A DNA stretch of 64,000 bases from Hyalangium ruber (GCF_034259325.1 NZ_JAXIVS010000005.1:124001-188000), one strand, 5' to 3'. Shown: positions 9,994-16,988, counted from the stretch's first letter. The notes: generated by a model from the letters alone, not told the origin. Translations and numbers: made by a program.

Positions 9994-10884
9994 TCAGCTC
10001 ACCACGGGCAGGGGGAAGCCCTGGGCGGCGGGCGCGGGCTTCGTCACCCCCGCGGCCTCGTTCATGCGGCCAGAGCGGAACGGCTCGAGGTCCACCGCCA
10101 CGAACTGGAAGCCCAGCTGCTTGAGCGCGGTGTTGATGCGCAGCCGAACCTCGACCGACATGAAGCGCTCGTACTCCTCCGCCGCCAGCTCGATGCGCGC
10201 CACCTCCTGGTGGTAGCGCACCCGGAACTGCCGGAAGCCCAGCCGGCGCAGCTCCGACTCCGCCTGAGCGATCTGGAACAGCCGCTCCCGCGTCACCGAG
10301 GTGCCGTACGGAATGCGCGAGGCCAGGCACGCCATCTGCGGCTTGTCCCACGTGGGCAGCCCCAGGTGGTGGCTCCAGGCGCGGATCTCGTCCTTCGTCA
10401 GCCCCGCCTGCGCCAGCGGCGAGCGCACCTGGTGCTCCTTGGCCGCCTTGTGCCCGGGCCGGTGATCCTTGAAGTCATCCGCGTTGAAGCCGTCCAGCAC
10501 CACCGCGTAGCCCAACTCCTGGCGGCGGGCCTCGCACAAGTCGTACAGCTCCGTCTTGCAGAAGTAGCAGCGGTTGGTCGGGTTGGCCGCGTACTGCGGG
10601 TTGGCCAGCTCGTTGCTCGTCACCACCTCGTGCCGCGCGCCCAGACGGGCGGCGAGCTGCCGCGCCTCCTGCTCCTCCTCGGGCGCCACCGAGGCCGACA
10701 GCGCCGTCACCGCCAGCGCCCGCTCGCCCAGCTCCTCCACCGCGATCTTCAGCACGAAGGTGGAGTCCACCCCGCCGGAGAACGCCACCAGCGCCGTGCC
10801 CTCAGCCCGGATCGCCGCGCGCATCGCCTCCAGCTTGGGGCGGGAGGACTCACACAGGGCCTGGATCTGCTCGGGGCTCAGCAT
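9994..10884 (-). CDS. larE: ATP-dependent sacrificial sulfur transferase LarE
   Basis: 296 aa. LarE inserts sulfur into the pyridinium dicarboxylate precursor of the nickel-pincer cofactor of lactate racemase. The PP-loop SGGVDST (36-42) binds ATP. NRCYFCKTELY contributes a CxxC (C106/C109), and C186 in KPQMACLASR aligns with the sulfur-donating cysteine of the family. ATG 10884 has AGGAAA about 7 nt upstream. larA, larB and larC are not in the window, so the Lar function cannot be confirmed locally; it may serve another sulfuration. The neighbouring genes upstream also concern sulfur activation and transfer. Confidence 0.9.
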   Translation of the reverse strand: MLSPEQIQALCESSRPKLEAMRAAIRAEGTALVAFSGGVDSTFVLKIAVEELGERALAVTALSASVAPEEEQEARQLAARLGARHEVVTSNELANPQYAANPTNRCYFCKTELYDLCEARRQELGYAVVLDGFNADDFKDHRPGHKAAKEHQVRSPLAQAGLTKDEIRAWSHHLGLPTWDKPQMACLASRIPYGTSVTRERLFQIAQAESELRRLGFRQFRVRYHQEVARIELAAEEYERFMSVEVRLRINTALKQLGFQFVAVDLEPFRSGRMNEAAGVTKPAPAAQGFPLPVVS

Positions 10885-10964: not shown

Positions 10965-11693
10965 CTACTTGCGCTTGGGGGTCTTCTTGGCCGCCGGAGC
11001 CGCCGGCTTCGCCACGCGGGCCGCGCGCGTCGCCGGGCGGGCCTTGGCACCCGTCCCCTTGCCGCCGCCGCCCTTGTCGGCCTTGGGCTCACCGCGCCGC
11101 GCCTGCTTGGCCACGGGGTTGGCCTTCATCTTCTTGCCGGTGATGATCTTCAGCTCGTCGCTCGTCACGTAGCCGAGGTCCAGCAGCGACTGGAAGATCT
11201 TCATCGCGCCGTCCTCCACCGCCTCGGTGTCGGAGTGGATCGTCACCTCGGGCGAGTTGGGCGGCTCGTACGGCTCGGTGATGCCGATGAAGTTGGGGAT
11301 CTCGCCGCTCAGGGCCTTCTTGTACTTGCCCGTGGAGTCGCGCGCGATGAGCGTCTCGGTGGGGCAGTCGACGTAGACCTCGACATAGCGGCCGATCTGG
11401 CGACGGTTCTCCTCGCGCCCGCTCTTGTAGGGGCTCACGCTCGGCACGAGCACCGCTACGTTGTTGCGGGTGAGGACCTGGGCCACATAGCCCAACCGGC
11501 GGACGATGGTGGAGCGCTCCTCTTTGGTGTCACCGAGGCCCTGCCAGAGATCGTCTCCGATCTCGCCCTCGTCGAGGATCTCCACATTGCGACCCACCTG
11601 GCGCAGCCGTGCGGCGATGTAGGCGGCCATGGTGGTCTTGCCGGTACCGTGCATGCCGGTCAGCCAGAGCGTGAAACCAGTGGTGCTGGGCAT
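10965..11693 (-). CDS. Divergent adenylylsulfate kinase (CysC-like) with basic tail
   Basis: 242 aa. P-loop GMHGTGKTT (13-21), SVSPYKSGRE and the GITEPYEPPNSPE block are APS-kinase signatures (phosphorylation of APS to PAPS). The usual LDGDxxR after the P-loop is replaced by LDEGEIGDDLW, so the canonical Arg that contacts APS is missing at this place. After about residue 190 there is a Lys/Ala/Pro-rich basic tail of some 50 aa absent from typical CysC. No sulfate adenylyltransferase is nearby. It may be a true PAPS-forming enzyme or a paralogue with another adenylylated substrate. It sits beside the CysO-type sulfur-carrier operon on the same strand. Confidence 0.85.
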   Translation of the reverse strand: MPSTTGFTLWLTGMHGTGKTTMAAYIAARLRQVGRNVEILDEGEIGDDLWQGLGDTKEERSTIVRRLGYVAQVLTRNNVAVLVPSVSPYKSGREENRRQIGRYVEVYVDCPTETLIARDSTGKYKKALSGEIPNFIGITEPYEPPNSPEVTIHSDTEAVEDGAMKIFQSLLDLGYVTSDELKIITGKKMKANPVAKQARRGEPKADKGGGGKGTGAKARPATRAARVAKPAAPAAKKTPKRK

Positions 11694-11864: not shown

Positions 11865-12341
11865 TCATTCCGTCCCCAGCGGAACCAGATGGTCGCGAAA
11901 ATCGCCATCTTGCCACCAGAAAAGCTGGGCTTCGGTGGCTCGGCCCTCCAGGACAGCAACCACCAGGTAGGACACACCCGGGAGTACGGGCAGGCCGGCA
12001 GGCGCGGCCTGGGCCCTGTCCTCGGCGGAGAAGCCCGCGAATCCATTCACGTGGGAGTGGAACACACACGCCACCTGCTCACCCAGGGCATCGGCCTCCT
12101 CGTTGACGGCGAGCCACTCCTGGAGCTCGAAGTGGTAGGCGGTGCGCGATGTATGGGGGAAGCGCACCGGATCGGCTGCGTGGTAACGATCATAGGCGTT
12201 GCGCAGGGGGCGCACGCGCCAGGGCCCACTCGGCCCGGCCCGGAGAATCACCCCGCAGCCCTCCTGGGGGTACATCGCCTCCAGGTGCCTGACAACGCCC
12301 GACAGATCCTCGGGAAGTCGGTTCAGCGGCACTTCGAGCAC
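11865..12341 (-). CDS. M67-family JAMM metallopeptidase (Mec-like)
   Basis: 158 aa. The JAMM zinc site is complete: E27 in YPQEGCGV, H95-S-H97, S105 and D108, matching HxH-x7-S-x2-D exactly. In Mycobacterium the homologous Mec protease releases cysteine from a CysO-cysteine adduct. Here it is the last gene of an operon with a CysO-like carrier, so the same role is the leading hypothesis. GTG 12341 has GGAG 8 nt upstream and overlaps the end of the preceding pseudo-E1 gene by 19 bp. It is probably cytosolic, as no signal peptide is present. Confidence 0.92.
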   Translation of the reverse strand: MLEVPLNRLPEDLSGVVRHLEAMYPQEGCGVILRAGPSGPWRVRPLRNAYDRYHAADPVRFPHTSRTAYHFELQEWLAVNEEADALGEQVACVFHSHVNGFAGFSAEDRAQAAPAGLPVLPGVSYLVVAVLEGRATEAQLFWWQDGDFRDHLVPLGTE

Positions 12342-12952
12342 CGCTGGAGCTCCATGTCGGTCACCCTGCCCGGCCCCTCGAGCCACCGGGCGCCCAGCTC
12401 CGGCCCCATCCCGAGTTGGAGCCGCTGGAACACCAGTGCCCCCAACGTCCCGAGCGCCACGCCGAGGATGCCCGTGGGTGGAGCCCCCAACGTGCGCACC
12501 GTCTCCCCGAAGCACCACACGCAGCCCTGGCTGCCGCGGAACACCACCGCGCCCCGGACATGGTCGCCCCCGAGCGCCACCCAGGGCGCCTCGCCCTTCC
12601 ACGCCGCGGGCAGTTGCGCGAGCCGGCCCCCGGCACGGGGACTCACGGCATCCGGGTTCACCTCCGGGAGCACCCGCGCCAGCACCTGCGCCGCGGACTG
12701 CCCCACCTCCTCGGCCGAGACGAGGAAGCCCGGCGCGGCGGGCCCCAGCTGCGCGTCCGTGGCCTCCACGGGCGTGCCTCCGGCGGCCAGGTACGCGGCG
12801 GCCGTGAGCACGGCGGGCCCCGCGCCCTCGAGCCGCGCCCCACCCTCCAGCAGCGCCTCCTGTCCGCGCCCGCCCACCTCCTTCAAGAGGATCTGGCGCG
12901 AGTAGCGAAGGATCTGGTCTTCCCGTAGGGCCACGGCGCTAGCCTCCGGCAA
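12323..12952 (-). CDS. Degenerate ThiF/MoeB (E1-like) protein, probable pseudoenzyme
   Basis: 209 aa. The start ILRYSRQILLKEVGG (14-28) is the classic MoeB/ThiF N-terminal Arg helix. The C-terminal half keeps both zinc pairs (C144-V-W-C147 and C205-S-K-C208) and the GILGVALGTLGALV helix. The Rossmann part is eroded: GAG is present at 43-45, but GGLGCP, the NLxRQ loop and the DATDN-type aspartates are absent, so it should not adenylate. Its start overlaps the stop of the sulfur-carrier gene by 14 bp. It could be the non-catalytic half of a heterodimeric E1 with the protein encoded at 13441-14175, which lacks exactly this N-terminal helix. Confidence 0.85.
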   Translation of the reverse strand: MPEASAVALREDQILRYSRQILLKEVGGRGQEALLEGGARLEGAGPAVLTAAAYLAAGGTPVEATDAQLGPAAPGFLVSAEEVGQSAAQVLARVLPEVNPDAVSPRAGGRLAQLPAAWKGEAPWVALGGDHVRGAVVFRGSQGCVWCFGETVRTLGAPPTGILGVALGTLGALVFQRLQLGMGPELGARWLEGPGRVTDMELQRCSKCR

Positions 12953-13211
12953 TGGCGGGGATGAGGGTGATGCGATCCGCGTCCTTCACGGGCGTCTCCA
13001 GCTCCTCCAGGAAGCGGATGTCCTCCTCGTTGAGGAACACGTTCACGTAGCGGCGCACGGCACCCTTGTCATCGAGCACGCGCGGGCCGATGCCGGGGAA
13101 ACGCTTCTCCAGCTCGCGCAGCACCTCGCCCACGGTGGCGCCCGGGGCGGCCACCTCGTCCTGGTTGCGGGTGAAGCCGCGCAGGGGCGTGGGAATGCGA
13201 ACCTTCGCCAT
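12939..13211 (-). CDS. cysO: CysO-like ubiquitin-fold sulfur carrier (MoaD/ThiS family)
   Basis: 90 aa ending IPAIAGG. The C-terminal Gly-Gly is the site that becomes a thiocarboxylate. The start MAKVRIPTPLRGFT, the RRYVNVFLNEEDIRF core and the ITLIPAIAGG end closely resemble mycobacterial CysO, more than MoaD or ThiS. CysO donates sulfur to O-phosphoserine through CysM, leaving CysO-Cys that a JAMM protease trims. E1, TusA and JAMM genes surround it; no cysM is in the window. ATG 13211 lies 2 bp after the tusA stop. Confidence 0.93.
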   Translation of the reverse strand: MAKVRIPTPLRGFTRNQDEVAAPGATVGEVLRELEKRFPGIGPRVLDDKGAVRRYVNVFLNEEDIRFLEELETPVKDADRITLIPAIAGG

Positions 13212-13213
13212 GC

Positions 13214-13456
13214 TCAACTCCCGTGCTTGCGGAGCAACAGCCGGTGGGTGCCGTCCGGCCGTGCCTCCAGGGTGAGGACCTCGTGGCCTTCCTCGCGCGC
13301 GCTGCGGGGAACGTTCTTCAGCGGCTCCTCGCCCTTGAGGAGCACCTCCAGCACCGCGCCCGCCGCGAGCGACTCCAGCTTGAGCTTGGTGCGCACGTAC
13401 GTCATGGGGCACACCTCGCGGGTGATGTCGATCGTGGCCGTCACCGTGTCGTGCAT
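13214..13456 (-). CDS. TusA-family sulfurtransferase
   Basis: 80 aa. The Cys-Pro motif is EVCPMTYVRTKLKLE (C16-P17), which defines TusA proteins: the Cys carries a persulfide from a cysteine desulfurase or other donor. In this operon it is well placed to hand sulfur to the adenylated CysO-like carrier, the job done in mycobacteria by the rhodanese domain of MoeZ. The ATG overlaps the end of the E1 gene by 16 bp, indicating translational coupling. The desulfurase-like gene at 26356 lies about 12 kb away. Confidence 0.93.
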   Translation of the reverse strand: MHDTVTATIDITREVCPMTYVRTKLKLESLAAGAVLEVLLKGEEPLKNVPRSAREEGHEVLTLEARPDGTHRLLLRKHGS

Positions 13457-14175
13457 CGCTCGGCCTCCTCGGGCGAAACGAGGGAGGGCGTCCGCCCGGG
13501 AGCACAGCTCGGACAATCGGGCGCGCGGTGTACGCGCACCGTCCGCCCCGAGAGCGAAGCCCCATCGAAGACATGTAGCATGGCCTCGCCCCGCGCCAGG
13601 CCCGGAGCGCCCGCGAGCCGCTCCAACGCGAGCAGGGCCTGGAACGCGCCCACCACCCCCGCCATCGAGCCCAGCACGCCCGCCTGGGCGCACGTCGGCA
13701 CGGAGTCCGGCGGAGGAGGCGCCTCGTACAGGCAGCGCAGGCAGGGCCCGTCCGGATCGACGCGCATCGCCTGGCCTTGCATGCGCAACACGCCCCCGTA
13801 GACCAGCGGCACGCCGGTGAGCACCGCCACATCGGACAGGAAGAACTTGGTGGCCGTGCCATCGGTGGCGTCGATGACGATGTCATGCGCGCGGAAGAGG
13901 GCCTCGGCGTTGCTGGCATCCACCCGCTCGGCCAGACCCTCGGTGCTCAGGTCGGGGAAGGCACGCGCCAGGCCCTCGGCGGCGGACTCGGCCTTGAGCC
14001 GACCCACGTCCGAGGTGCGGTGCCAGAGCTGGCGGTGGAGGTTCGTCACGTCCACGCGGTCCGGGTCCACCATCGTCACGTGCCCCACGCCGGCGTGCGC
14101 CAGCGCGAGCGACGCGGGACAGCCCAGGCCCCCCGCTCCCACCACCAACACTCGCGCCTCGTAAAGGCGGCCCAC
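13441..14175 (-). CDS. ThiF/MoeB/HesA-type E1 adenylyltransferase lacking the N-terminal Arg helix
   Basis: 244 aa. It should adenylate the C-terminal glycine of the sulfur carrier. Visible are GAGGLGCP (13-20), the NLHRQ loop (45-49), DATDG (102-106), the zinc pairs C145/C148 and C221/C224, and the conserved TCAQAGVLG. It begins at VGRLYEARVLVVG and so lacks the RYxRQ helix of MoeB/ThiF; no such sequence is encoded in frame upstream. GTG 14175 has GAGGAG 6-7 nt upstream. It is the first gene of a five-gene operon, followed by tusA, cysO-like, pseudo-E1 and JAMM. Confidence 0.92.
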   Translation of the reverse strand: MGRLYEARVLVVGAGGLGCPASLALAHAGVGHVTMVDPDRVDVTNLHRQLWHRTSDVGRLKAESAAEGLARAFPDLSTEGLAERVDASNAEALFRAHDIVIDATDGTATKFFLSDVAVLTGVPLVYGGVLRMQGQAMRVDPDGPCLRCLYEAPPPPDSVPTCAQAGVLGSMAGVVGAFQALLALERLAGAPGLARGEAMLHVFDGASLSGRTVRVHRAPDCPSCAPGRTPSLVSPEEAERCTTR

Positions 14176-14842: not shown

Positions 14843-14873
14843 GCATGCCCCCTTGGGTCCTCGGGGGGCATGC
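14843..14873 (+). terminator. Strong hairpin after the lipoprotein gene
   Basis: GCATGCCCCC (14843-14852) pairs perfectly with GGGGGCATGC (14864-14873), with an 11-nt loop. It sits between the lipoprotein gene and the histidine-kinase gene and probably ends the upstream transcript. Confidence 0.7.
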
Positions 14874-14925
14874 AAACGAGCGCGGGGATTTCCGGGAACG
14901 CGGCGGCTCCCTTAAGCTGCCGGCC

Positions 14926-16206
14926 GTGACCGAAACCGACCTCGCCCGCGACGAGGAGAAACCGGCCAACGACCTGCGCGCCCGGGTGCGCACGGTGCTG
15001 GAACGCCGCAAGCTCACCGACCGCGTCTCCGCCGAGCAGGCGGCCGCCTCCTGGGAGCAGGACCGCTTCGTGGCCCGGGCCCGCGCGCTCTTCTACGCGC
15101 GAATGATGTTCCTGACCCTGGGCCTGCTGATCCTCGCGGTGCCCACCTGGTCGGGCTACTTCGGCCTCAACGGCCCGCTGGCGTTCGCGGGCTACTTCGC
15201 GATGCTGCTCTACAGCGTCGCCAACTTCCTGGTCATCGATCACCCGAAGGCCGGCCGTTGGGTGACGTACCTCACGCTCTGCCTCGACCTGTGCATCATG
15301 GTGGTGCTGATCGCCAAGCCGCAGGTGGGCGGCGGTCTACAGAGCCCGCTGCTGGCCACGCAGCTGCTGTTCACCACCCTGTTCGCCATCCTCTACCCCC
15401 GGCCGCTGGCGATCCTCCCGCCGCTCTTGGCGCTGCCCATCACCACGCGGCTGGACCTGCTGCTCAACCGGTCGGTGACGGCCATCGAGCTGCTGACACT
15501 GCTGTGGTACTCGGCGCTCAACTTCATCATCGTCTACGTGGTGGTGTACCTGAACGAGCGAGAGGCCACCGCGCACCGCGAGGTGGTGGAGCTGCAGGGA
15601 GACCTGAAGGAGCTGGCCGTCGTGGAGGAGCGCAACCGCATGGCGCGGGAGATCCACGACGGGCTGGGCGCCTCGCTCTCCTCGATGATCATCCAGTCCG
15701 AGTACATCCTCGGGCTGGCGAAGGACGGCCCGCTGCGCGACGAGATCGGCGAGCTGAAGGCCACCGCGGAGGAGTCGATCGAGGAGCTGCGGCGCAACCT
15801 GCGGATGATGCGTGAGGACTTCGAGCTGACGCAGGGCCTGGAGGACTACGTGAAGACGTTCCGGGACCGCACGCAGCTGGACATCCGCTTCGAGCGCTCG
15901 GGGCTGCCGCGCAAGCTGTCGCCGGACGCGCAGCTGGCGCTGTTCCGCATCCTCCAGGAGGGCCTGTCCAACGCGGCCAAGCATGCACAGGCCAAGGTGG
16001 TGCAGGTGAAGCTCGACTTCAGCGAGCAGCGGGTACACCTGCTGGTGCGTGACGACGGCAAGGGCTTCGACCCGAAGAAGACGCCGCGTGGACACTACGG
16101 CCTGCTGAACATGCGCGAGCGCGCCATGAAGCTCGGCGGCGAAATCATCGTGGACTCGACGCCCGGCGCGGGTGCTCTCGTCTCCTTCTCCATTCCCTGT
16201 ACCTGA
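14926..16206 (+). CDS. NarL-type membrane sensor histidine kinase
   Basis: 426 aa. Five or six hydrophobic segments (about 60-205) form the membrane sensor, with almost no periplasmic domain, so it may sense within the membrane or the cytosol. The HisKA_3 box NRMAREIHDGLGA gives phospho-accepting H244. The HATPase domain shows NAAKHAQ and DDGKGFD. It pairs with the response regulator starting 11 bp downstream. GTG 14926 is chosen because the upstream in-frame sequence falls in the hairpin region; the ribosome site is weak, so the start is uncertain. Confidence 0.92.
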   Translation: MTETDLARDEEKPANDLRARVRTVLERRKLTDRVSAEQAAASWEQDRFVARARALFYARMMFLTLGLLILAVPTWSGYFGLNGPLAFAGYFAMLLYSVANFLVIDHPKAGRWVTYLTLCLDLCIMVVLIAKPQVGGGLQSPLLATQLLFTTLFAILYPRPLAILPPLLALPITTRLDLLLNRSVTAIELLTLLWYSALNFIIVYVVVYLNEREATAHREVVELQGDLKELAVVEERNRMAREIHDGLGASLSSMIIQSEYILGLAKDGPLRDEIGELKATAEESIEELRRNLRMMREDFELTQGLEDYVKTFRDRTQLDIRFERSGLPRKLSPDAQLALFRILQEGLSNAAKHAQAKVVQVKLDFSEQRVHLLVRDDGKGFDPKKTPRGHYGLLNMRERAMKLGGEIIVDSTPGAGALVSFSIPCT

Positions 16207-16217
16207 CCGGAGTTCCC

Positions 16218-16988
16218 GTGGACGCCCAGCCGACGACGCCTCCCGCAGCACCCATCCGCGTCTTCGTGGTCGAGGACCAGACCAAGATCCTGAAGAACCA
16301 GCTGCGGCTGCTGGAGGGGCACCAGGAGATCGAGATCATCGGCACCGCGCTGTCGGGCGAGGCCGCGCTCGAGGAGGTGCCCAAGGTGATGCCGGACGTG
16401 CTCCTGCTGGACCTGGGGCTGCCGCGCATGAGCGGCATCGACGTGACGCGGGCGGTGAAGGCCAGCTACCCGAAGGTGGAGATCCTCATCTTCACGATCT
16501 TCGACGAGGAGGACAAAGTCCTCGAGGCGGTGAAGGCGGGAGCCTCCGGTTACCTGCTCAAGGGCGCGCCGGTGGACAAGATCATCGAGGCCATCAAGGA
16601 GGTGCGCGCGGGCGGCACGGTGATTCAGCCGAACCTGGCGCGCCGGCTGTTGCGGCACTTCCGGGTGGATCCGGACAGCGCTCCGCTGCCCACCGAGCCG
16701 CGCCCGTCCCCTGCCCCTGTCGAGCCCGTCGCCGCGGAGCCCGCAGCCCCCGAAGCCCCGACCGCGGAGGCGGCGGATGAGCCACAGCTCAAGCCGCTGT
16801 CGGATCGCGAGCGGGAGATCCTCCAGCTCATCGCCAAGGGCGTATCGAACAGCGAGGCGGCGCGGCTGCTGAACCTGAGCAAGGCCACCATCCGCACGCA
16901 CCTGGAGCACATCTACCGCAAGCTCGAGGTGACCAACCGCGTGGAGGCCGTCACCGAGGGCATCCGCAAGGGCCTCATCTCGGTGTAG
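16218..16988 (+). CDS. NarL/LuxR-family response regulator
   Basis: 256 aa. The receiver domain (about 13-130) has the acidic pocket E19/D20, phospho-acceptor D65 in LLLDLGLP and the K of YLLKGAP. A Pro/Ala/Glu-rich linker of about 45 aa is longer than usual. It leads to a LuxR-type HTH (about 190-255: LSDREREILQLIAKG, ATIRTHLEHIYRKL). The GTG start is 11 bp after the kinase stop, so the two form one operon, with a macro-domain gene 5 bp after this stop. Confidence 0.95.
   Translation: MDAQPTTPPAAPIRVFVVEDQTKILKNQLRLLEGHQEIEIIGTALSGEAALEEVPKVMPDVLLLDLGLPRMSGIDVTRAVKASYPKVEILIFTIFDEEDKVLEAVKAGASGYLLKGAPVDKIIEAIKEVRAGGTVIQPNLARRLLRHFRVDPDSAPLPTEPRPSPAPVEPVAAEPAAPEAPTAEAADEPQLKPLSDREREILQLIAKGVSNSEAARLLNLSKATIRTHLEHIYRKLEVTNRVEAVTEGIRKGLISV

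Follow-up and report, generated by a model that had tools for sequence, protein, structure and literature searches.

A probable E1 divided over two subunits

The window analysed here, a stretch of 64,000 nucleotides from Hyalangium ruber (GCF_034259325.1 NZ_JAXIVS010000005.1:124001-188000), carries an operon in which the E1 enzyme is quite likely divided over two subunits; this would be a heterodimeric E1 of bacteria that acts on ubiquitin-like sulfur carriers. Five successive minus-strand genes, running from position 14175 to position 11865, encode a catalytic E1 half (E1a), a TusA-type sulfurtransferase, a ubiquitin-like sulfur carrier (UBL), an inactive E1 half (E1b), and a JAMM metalloprotease. 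The proposal of the initial annotation that a CysO/Mec-like carrier operon contains a split, probably heterodimeric E1 finds strong comparative support in the data described below.

E1a belongs to the ThiF/MoeB-type E1 superfamily, with the Rossmann fold, the GxGxxG motif, and residues Arg73, Lys86, and Asp130 (MoeB numbering) all present. It retains its nucleotide site and the residues needed for adenylation, as well as the cysteine of the crossover loop and the zinc ligands. The AlphaFold2 model of E1a (mean predicted local distance difference test score, pLDDT, 92.6) resembles most closely the structures of ThiF (Z 31.9), UBA3 (Z 29.2), and UBA2/SAE2 (Z 27.9). The start segment of the fold is missing from E1a, since its match to the ThiF family of Pfam, covering profile positions 17–237, begins only at position 17. 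The protein can be aligned with residues 29–248 of MoeB from Escherichia coli, with nothing equivalent to residues 1–28. No in-register arginine-finger motif was found in the up to 60 in-frame residues upstream of the E1a core; three loose matches (in loci L014, L029, and L073) are located 5–18 residues, not 24, before the glycine loop, or inside the upstream gene. The alignment of a full-length E1 query starts at residues 27–33 for most operonic E1a proteins and at residues 3–10 for the MoeB proteins that these genomes encode separately.

E1b, in turn, is not matched by any Pfam model, and its weak matches to the UbaA/MoeB models of NCBIfam (E 2e-7 to 4e-7) are strongest over the first ~50 residues. 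Its N terminus (RYSRQILLKEVGGRGQ) corresponds to the segment of MoeB comprising residues 1–28, which carries the arginine finger, and the remainder of the chain is degenerate. In a structural comparison of the AlphaFold2 model (pLDDT 93.5), ThiF/MoeB are at the top (Z 18.8), followed by SAE1 (Z 17.4) and APPBP1 (Z 16.9), both of them inactive subunits. Both E1a and E1b consist entirely of the adenylation fold, with neither a catalytic-cysteine nor a ubiquitin-fold domain.

E1b is a working gene under purifying selection. Over 27 Myxococcaceae loci, the ratio of nonsynonymous to synonymous substitution rates (dN/dS) has a median of 0.26 in E1b and 0.27 in E1a, and of 0.16 in the N terminus of E1b. 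The mean frequency of the most common residue is 0.78 within the first 28 residues of E1b, roughly its most conserved part, vs. 0.45 elsewhere, and five of its eight invariant residues (22 sequences) fall within the first 25. In several lineages (L029, L071, L072, and L076) E1b is reduced to about 70–150 residues, with the arginine retained.

The two halves complement each other residue by residue. Among 77 non-redundant E1a/E1b pairs, the equivalent of MoeB Arg14 is found in every E1b (77/77). Arg73, Lys86, and Asp130 are each present in 76 of the 77 E1a sequences, with one alignment gap, and are not conserved in E1b; the equivalent of Cys187 is likewise present in 76 E1a sequences (one gap) vs. 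none of the 77 E1b sequences. The structural matches also fall on opposite chains of the same complexes in the PDB (1y8q, 3kyc, 3dbh, and 1r4m), as E1a is paired with UBA3/SAE2 (Z 27–29) and E1b with APPBP1/SAE1 (Z 16–17), the aligner listing the single best chain for each entry. In homodimeric MoeB and ThiF the finger and the ATP site are located on one polypeptide, whereas here E1a is devoid of the finger and E1b of the ATP site. The arrangement is that of SAE1–UBA2 and APPBP1–UBA3, in which a catalytic and an inactive subunit both have the adenylation fold and the arginine finger is found on the inactive one.

Arg11 of ThiF and Arg14 of MoeB are described as arginine fingers reaching into the active site of the partner (PMC13139853). 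Judged by sequence, fold, and evolution, E1a and E1b most likely associate as a pseudo-symmetric heterodimer that has a single active site. The N-terminal helix of E1b would reach the active site of E1a and provide its arginine in trans, and the rest of E1b, having lost its own ATP site, would keep enough of the Rossmann fold for dimerization.

Conservation of the pair among myxobacteria

Co-conservation of the two E1s, set beforehand as a check on the initial annotation, was indeed found. In a set of 60 non-redundant operons, picked for the presence of E1a and of a gene resembling adenylylsulfate (APS) kinase, so that the kinase is present by construction, E1b accompanies E1a in all 60 (59 recognized by script and L071 by eye). 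TusA is found in 55 of these operons, the sulfur transferase LarE in 53, JAMM in 49, UBL in 42, and CysM in 10. Operon-type E1b was recovered from 27 of the 36 genomes searched in the family to which the window belongs (35 relatives and its own). Families f2, f4, f5, f6, f7, f8, and f9 of the order contain the pair as well, as do named genomes of Myxococcus, Corallococcus, Archangium, Pyxidicoccus, Citreicoccus, and Hyalangium. Several of the relatives are draft metagenome-assembled genomes. A TusA-based scan, which yielded 80 loci, revealed a split E1 at every myxobacterial locus of sufficient length. Since the gene set is conserved in most families of the order, it is not a product of chance. 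A frameshift or sequencing error that would have cut one E1 in two was ruled out, as TusA and UBL stand between the halves, each half extends over the full fold, and many genomes share the arrangement.

E1a, TusA, and E1b are jointly absent from two loci (L034 in genome G014 and L045 in G007), with UBL, JAMM, the kinase, and LarE still at the site; at these sites UBL must rely on another E1, or on none. Natural fusions, of E1b with JAMM (L012 and L025) and of E1a with TusA (L029), point to a single assembly.

Three further observations were made in the course of these comparisons. An operon typical of Myxococcaceae is found in a record titled Comamonas sp. KCTC 72670 (L152, BNCN01000004.1), which probably bears a wrong label or is contaminated. 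Close relatives of the CPMT-type TusA are encoded in Reyranella, Magnetospirillum, and Rhodospirillales (L148, L163, L164, L168, and others), and no E1 adjoins the alphaproteobacterial TusA matches of the 80-locus scan. A second E1a/E1b-like pair is located at L232:5067-6442 (genome G054), its E1a copy being without Asp130 and the crossover cysteine.

The unsplit form and the origin of the split

The operon of a sister order in the same class (L115) comprises a pyridoxal phosphate enzyme, E1, TusA, UBL, CysM, JAMM, the kinase, and LarE. Its single E1 holds both the arginine-finger segment RHSRQ (RHSRQMLLDAIGGAGQ) and the glycine loop GAGGLG; E1b was not found in this operon, and CysM directly follows UBL. 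When compared with this arrangement, the split looks like the outcome of a duplication, with the new copy placed between UBL and CysM, and of reciprocal loss, and the L115 operon looks like the ancestral one-piece state. A split pair is also present in a different class (L117, in the order E1a, E1b, TusA). E1a forms one group in 76% of the bootstrap trees, which is compatible with a single origin of the splits in L117 and in Myxococcales. Because a full-length E1 occupies the same operon in the sister order, the split is probably independent of that in the eukaryotic heterodimeric E1s.

Somewhat more likely than not is a scenario in which myxobacteria, without any link to eukaryotes, evolved an obligate heterodimeric E1, the inactive partner of which is undergoing reduction towards a bare arginine-finger module, and which in some lineages took over from MoeB/ThiF as the cell's sole E1, with the unsplit form surviving in the sister order. 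If so, the origin of heterodimeric E1s could be replayed and tested.

Proposed sulfur relay and possible carriers

The likeness to CysO/Mec cysteine synthesis noted in the initial annotation holds for the carrier, a protein with the ThiS fold that ends in AGG, and for JAMM, in which Glu27 and the motif His95-Ser-His97-x7-Ser105-x2-Asp108 are intact, but it is less certain for cysteine as the product in the window species, where operonic CysM is absent. No carrier-linked CysM was found in the window or in its genome, which contains only cysteine synthases that are 36–40% identical. In at least eight other genomes (G010, G021, G023, G005, G038, G058, G043, and G041), CysM is positioned between E1b and JAMM, scoring 340 bits with the cysteine synthase B model, under its cut-off of 394. 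The presence of CysM in these operons supports a cysteine route similar to that of CysO/CysM/Mec, and, since several relatives share it, cysteine is likely to be the ancestral product.

The flow of sulfur and its product can be proposed by analogy with the CysO/CysM/Mec pathway. Adenylation by the heterodimer would take place at the C-terminal glycine of UBL, and a persulfide of TusA would convert the resulting acyl-adenylate to a thiocarboxylate. An acceptor enzyme, which in the relatives would be operonic CysM, would then take the sulfur from the thiocarboxylate, and the product would be set free through cleavage of the UBL adduct by JAMM. The use of TusA in place of a rhodanese, noted in the initial annotation, fits these data, but this class of operon has been known since 2006 (PMC1779556, row 4e of Table 1).

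UBL may not be the only carrier. In the complete genome of one relative (G040, loci L051 and L040), no ThiF-family protein other than E1a and E1b exceeds the cut-off, and there is a single carrier, ThiS, located in a thiS-thiG-thiE cluster in which the ThiG- and ThiE-like genes were recognized by eye from the sequence. Four other genomes (G046, G017, G035, and G001) contain the pair and no full-length MoeB/ThiF. On these grounds, the pair can probably activate ThiS, and in G017 also MoaD; in lineages that have no UBL or MoeB it probably serves ThiS (and MoaD).

These genomes lend some weight to a possible, although less probable, explanation that partly overlaps with the one favored here, namely that the split E1 is real and its main task is the activation of ThiS/MoaD, or of a natural-product carrier, rather than cysteine synthesis, with UBL and JAMM as accessories. 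UBL is absent from 18 and JAMM from 11 of the 60 operons, and a further cluster of the window genome encodes a second UBL with 80% identity to the first; both observations would agree with such a role. However, several families, and the unsplit outgroup as well, have UBL, JAMM, and CysM in the operon, so that the carrier–cysteine layout looks ancestral, and genomes with an operonic UBL usually retain a separate MoeB.

Scaffold or arginine donor

Several points weigh against a heterodimer that acts through the arginine of E1b in a cysteine route. MoeB and ThiF are reported to tolerate single mutations of the arginine finger, which is thus non-essential there (PMC13139853), and APPBP1 mainly speeds up UBA3, being partly a scaffold (PMC6031683); E1b could thus be a scaffold first and a finger second. 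We infer the formation of the complex and the action of the arginine in trans from sequence, evolution, and single-chain models. The E1a sequences in the table of 77 pairs were cut at the start of the match, so that the absence of the Arg14 equivalent from E1a rests on the separate upstream scan. The tree is without power to date the split or to settle a shared origin with L117. Finally, a role in cysteine synthesis is less certain for Hyalangium ruber, operonic CysM being gone from the lineage of the window.

The reportedly dispensable finger of MoeB/ThiF (PMC13139853) and the largely rate-enhancing, scaffold-like APPBP1 (PMC6031683), together with the natural E1b–JAMM fusions, could also mean that E1a is active alone as a homodimer and that E1b is a scaffold or regulator recruiting TusA, UBL, or JAMM. 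We regard this as unlikely, since docking alone needs neither an arginine kept in 77 of 77 sequences amid an eroding E1b nor the loss of exactly the matching segment from E1a, and several E1b proteins are trimmed to little beyond the N-terminal part. That E1b is just a decaying pseudogene left from duplication of an E1, as the loss of all catalytic residues and of any Pfam match might suggest, is highly improbable and was rejected on a dN/dS equal to that of E1a (0.26 vs. 0.27), with an open reading frame (ORF) in all relatives, Arg14 kept in 77 of 77, a confidently modelled fold, and a place always beside E1a.

Comparison with other E1 systems

E1s composed of an active and an inactive half are a eukaryotic theme, represented by the enzymes for SUMO and NEDD8. 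A search of open-licence literature, partial in coverage, brought up no description of a heterodimeric E1 from bacteria. As in homodimeric MoeB and ThiF, the two halves encoded in the window share a fold, and the arginine finger would come from the partner subunit. MoeB and ThiF, however, are described as homodimers in which adenylation is possible on both protomers (PMC12355090), that is, they have two identical active subunits, whereas an active and an inactive gene product are encoded here. In this respect E1a and E1b are more similar to SAE1–UBA2, APPBP1–UBA3, and yeast Tcd1–Tcd2 (for the last, PMC13139853), each with a catalytic subunit and an inactive one bearing the finger. SAE1 and APPBP1 are thought to supply an arginine to UBA2 and UBA3 in trans, and the same is proposed for E1b. 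Unlike in the eukaryotic heterodimers, there are no catalytic-cysteine or ubiquitin-fold domains, and the context is that of sulfur carriers.

The CysO/CysM/Mec system of Mycobacterium tuberculosis, with its E1 MoeZR, shares with these operons a GG-ending carrier activated by an E1, a JAMM protease, and, in several of the relatives, a cysteine synthase (PMC3227635). MoeZR is a single chain with a fused rhodanese (PMC3227635), whereas TusA and a two-chain E1 are present here; in addition, the window lineage is missing operonic CysM. Operon classes 4c and 4e of Iyer, Burroughs and Aravind (2006) bring together a carrier, a JAB protease, an E1 with no rhodanese, SirA/TusA, and adenylylsulfate kinase or cysteine synthase (PMC1779556, Table 1). 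All the elements of row 4e, namely the rhodanese-free E1, TusA/SirA, the carrier, JAB, and the sulfur-assimilation genes, are present in the window, cysteine synthase being included in row 4c, and it was these authors who proposed that SirA/TusA stands in for the rhodanese (PMC1779556). The window differs in the changed motif of its APS-kinase-like member, and the available part of that paper mentions neither a division into active and inactive E1s nor Myxococcus (PMC1779556).

With its before-state still visible, such a bacterial case would show how an E1 homodimer loses its symmetry. After duplication, one copy would lose the arginine arm and the other its catalytic activity, and the inactive copy would then erode. 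A long-standing question, concerning the reason for the rise of heterodimeric E1s and the task of their inactive subunit, becomes testable with small, easily expressed proteins. Since E1b represents a family undetected by Pfam models, such genes are probably annotated as hypothetical.

Organization of the operon and its surroundings

The five minus-strand ORFs were all found in the families assigned to them in the initial annotation, by ORF reading and by Pfam/NCBIfam matches, which for E1b are limited to the weak NCBIfam ones. The encoded proteins comprise 244 (E1a), 80 (TusA), 90 (UBL), 203 (E1b), and 158 (JAMM) amino acids. The operon is longer than these five genes, as the APS-kinase-like protein and LarE belong to it and are conserved with the rest, giving the full order E1a, TusA, UBL, E1b, JAMM, APS-kinase-like, LarE (Table 1).

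E1a and TusA overlap by 16 nucleotides and E1b and JAMM by 19, whereas TusA and UBL are separated by two nucleotides, and UBL and E1b by four when E1b starts with GTG at 12934. The alternative start, TTG at 12952, which would create a 14-nucleotide overlap with UBL, was dropped, as the GTG is probably the correct one. It is preceded by GGAGG eight bases upstream and falls, in the alignment, on the ATG with which almost every homologue starts, and the UBL/E1b junction is on these grounds a gap. Of the overlaps claimed at three of the four junctions, those of E1a/TusA and E1b/JAMM are real and that of UBL/E1b is not; with two of the four junctions overlapping, the argument for co-translation is weaker than it had appeared.

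Table 1. Genes and sequence motifs of the operon, in window coordinates
Feature	Coordinates	Strand	Basis
E1a, catalytic E1 half; adenylation core entire, no N-terminal arginine-finger helix	13441..14175	-	PF00899, E 1e-63; GTG start with Shine–Dalgarno sequence
GxGGLG nucleotide loop of E1a, Gly13–Gly18	14122..14139	-	(Near-)invariant in 22 E1a sequences
TusA-type sulfurtransferase	13214..13456	-	PF01206, E 4e-20
TusA active-site motif Cys16-Pro-Met-Thr, CPMT replacing CPxP	13400..13411	-	C, P, and T invariant in relatives
UBL, ThiS/MoaD/CysO/SAMP-like sulfur carrier	12939..13211	-	PF02597, E 9e-17; NCBIfam SAMP1, 61 bits
C-terminal Gly-Gly of UBL, expected site of adenylation/thiocarboxylation	12942..12947	-	Sequence
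E1b, pseudo-E1 keeping the arginine-finger helix	12323..12934	-	AlphaFold2 model, fold matches, dN/dS; GTG start with Shine–Dalgarno sequence
E1b Arg10-Tyr-Ser-Arg13; Arg13 equivalent to the arginine finger Arg14 of MoeB	12896..12907	-	Arg13 invariant, 22/22 and 77/77
JAMM/MPN metalloprotease, Mec-like	11865..12341	-	PF14464, E 3e-14
JAMM motif His-Ser-His-x7-Ser-x2-Asp	12018..12059	-	Sequence
APS-kinase-like P-loop protein, constant operon member with altered substrate motif	10965..11693	-	PF01583, E 2e-41
LarE-type ATP-dependent sulfur transferase, conserved downstream	9994..10881	-	TIGR00268, E 8e-97; 53/60 operons

In the APS-kinase-like protein, the DGDNxR motif of CysC from E. coli is lost in nearly all of 66 relatives. 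The residue equivalent to Asn66 is replaced by Glu or Asp in 62 of the 66, and that equivalent to Arg68 is mostly Gly, Gln, or Ala; with its motif so altered, the protein may phosphorylate something other than APS. LarE remains beside the operon even in lineages that are devoid of UBL and JAMM. The second carrier of the window genome (G000:C11:162669-162929; L031:7643-7933) has no E1 beside it, and its neighbors, a look-alike of polysaccharide pyruvyl transferase and genes of biosynthetic appearance, perhaps indicate a role in the thiolation of a natural product or a sugar. The operon is flanked by divergent plus-strand genes for a NarQ/UhpB-like histidine kinase (14845-16206) and a response regulator (16218-16988), which adjoin it in many relatives (among them L035, L036, L047, and L050) and may regulate it.

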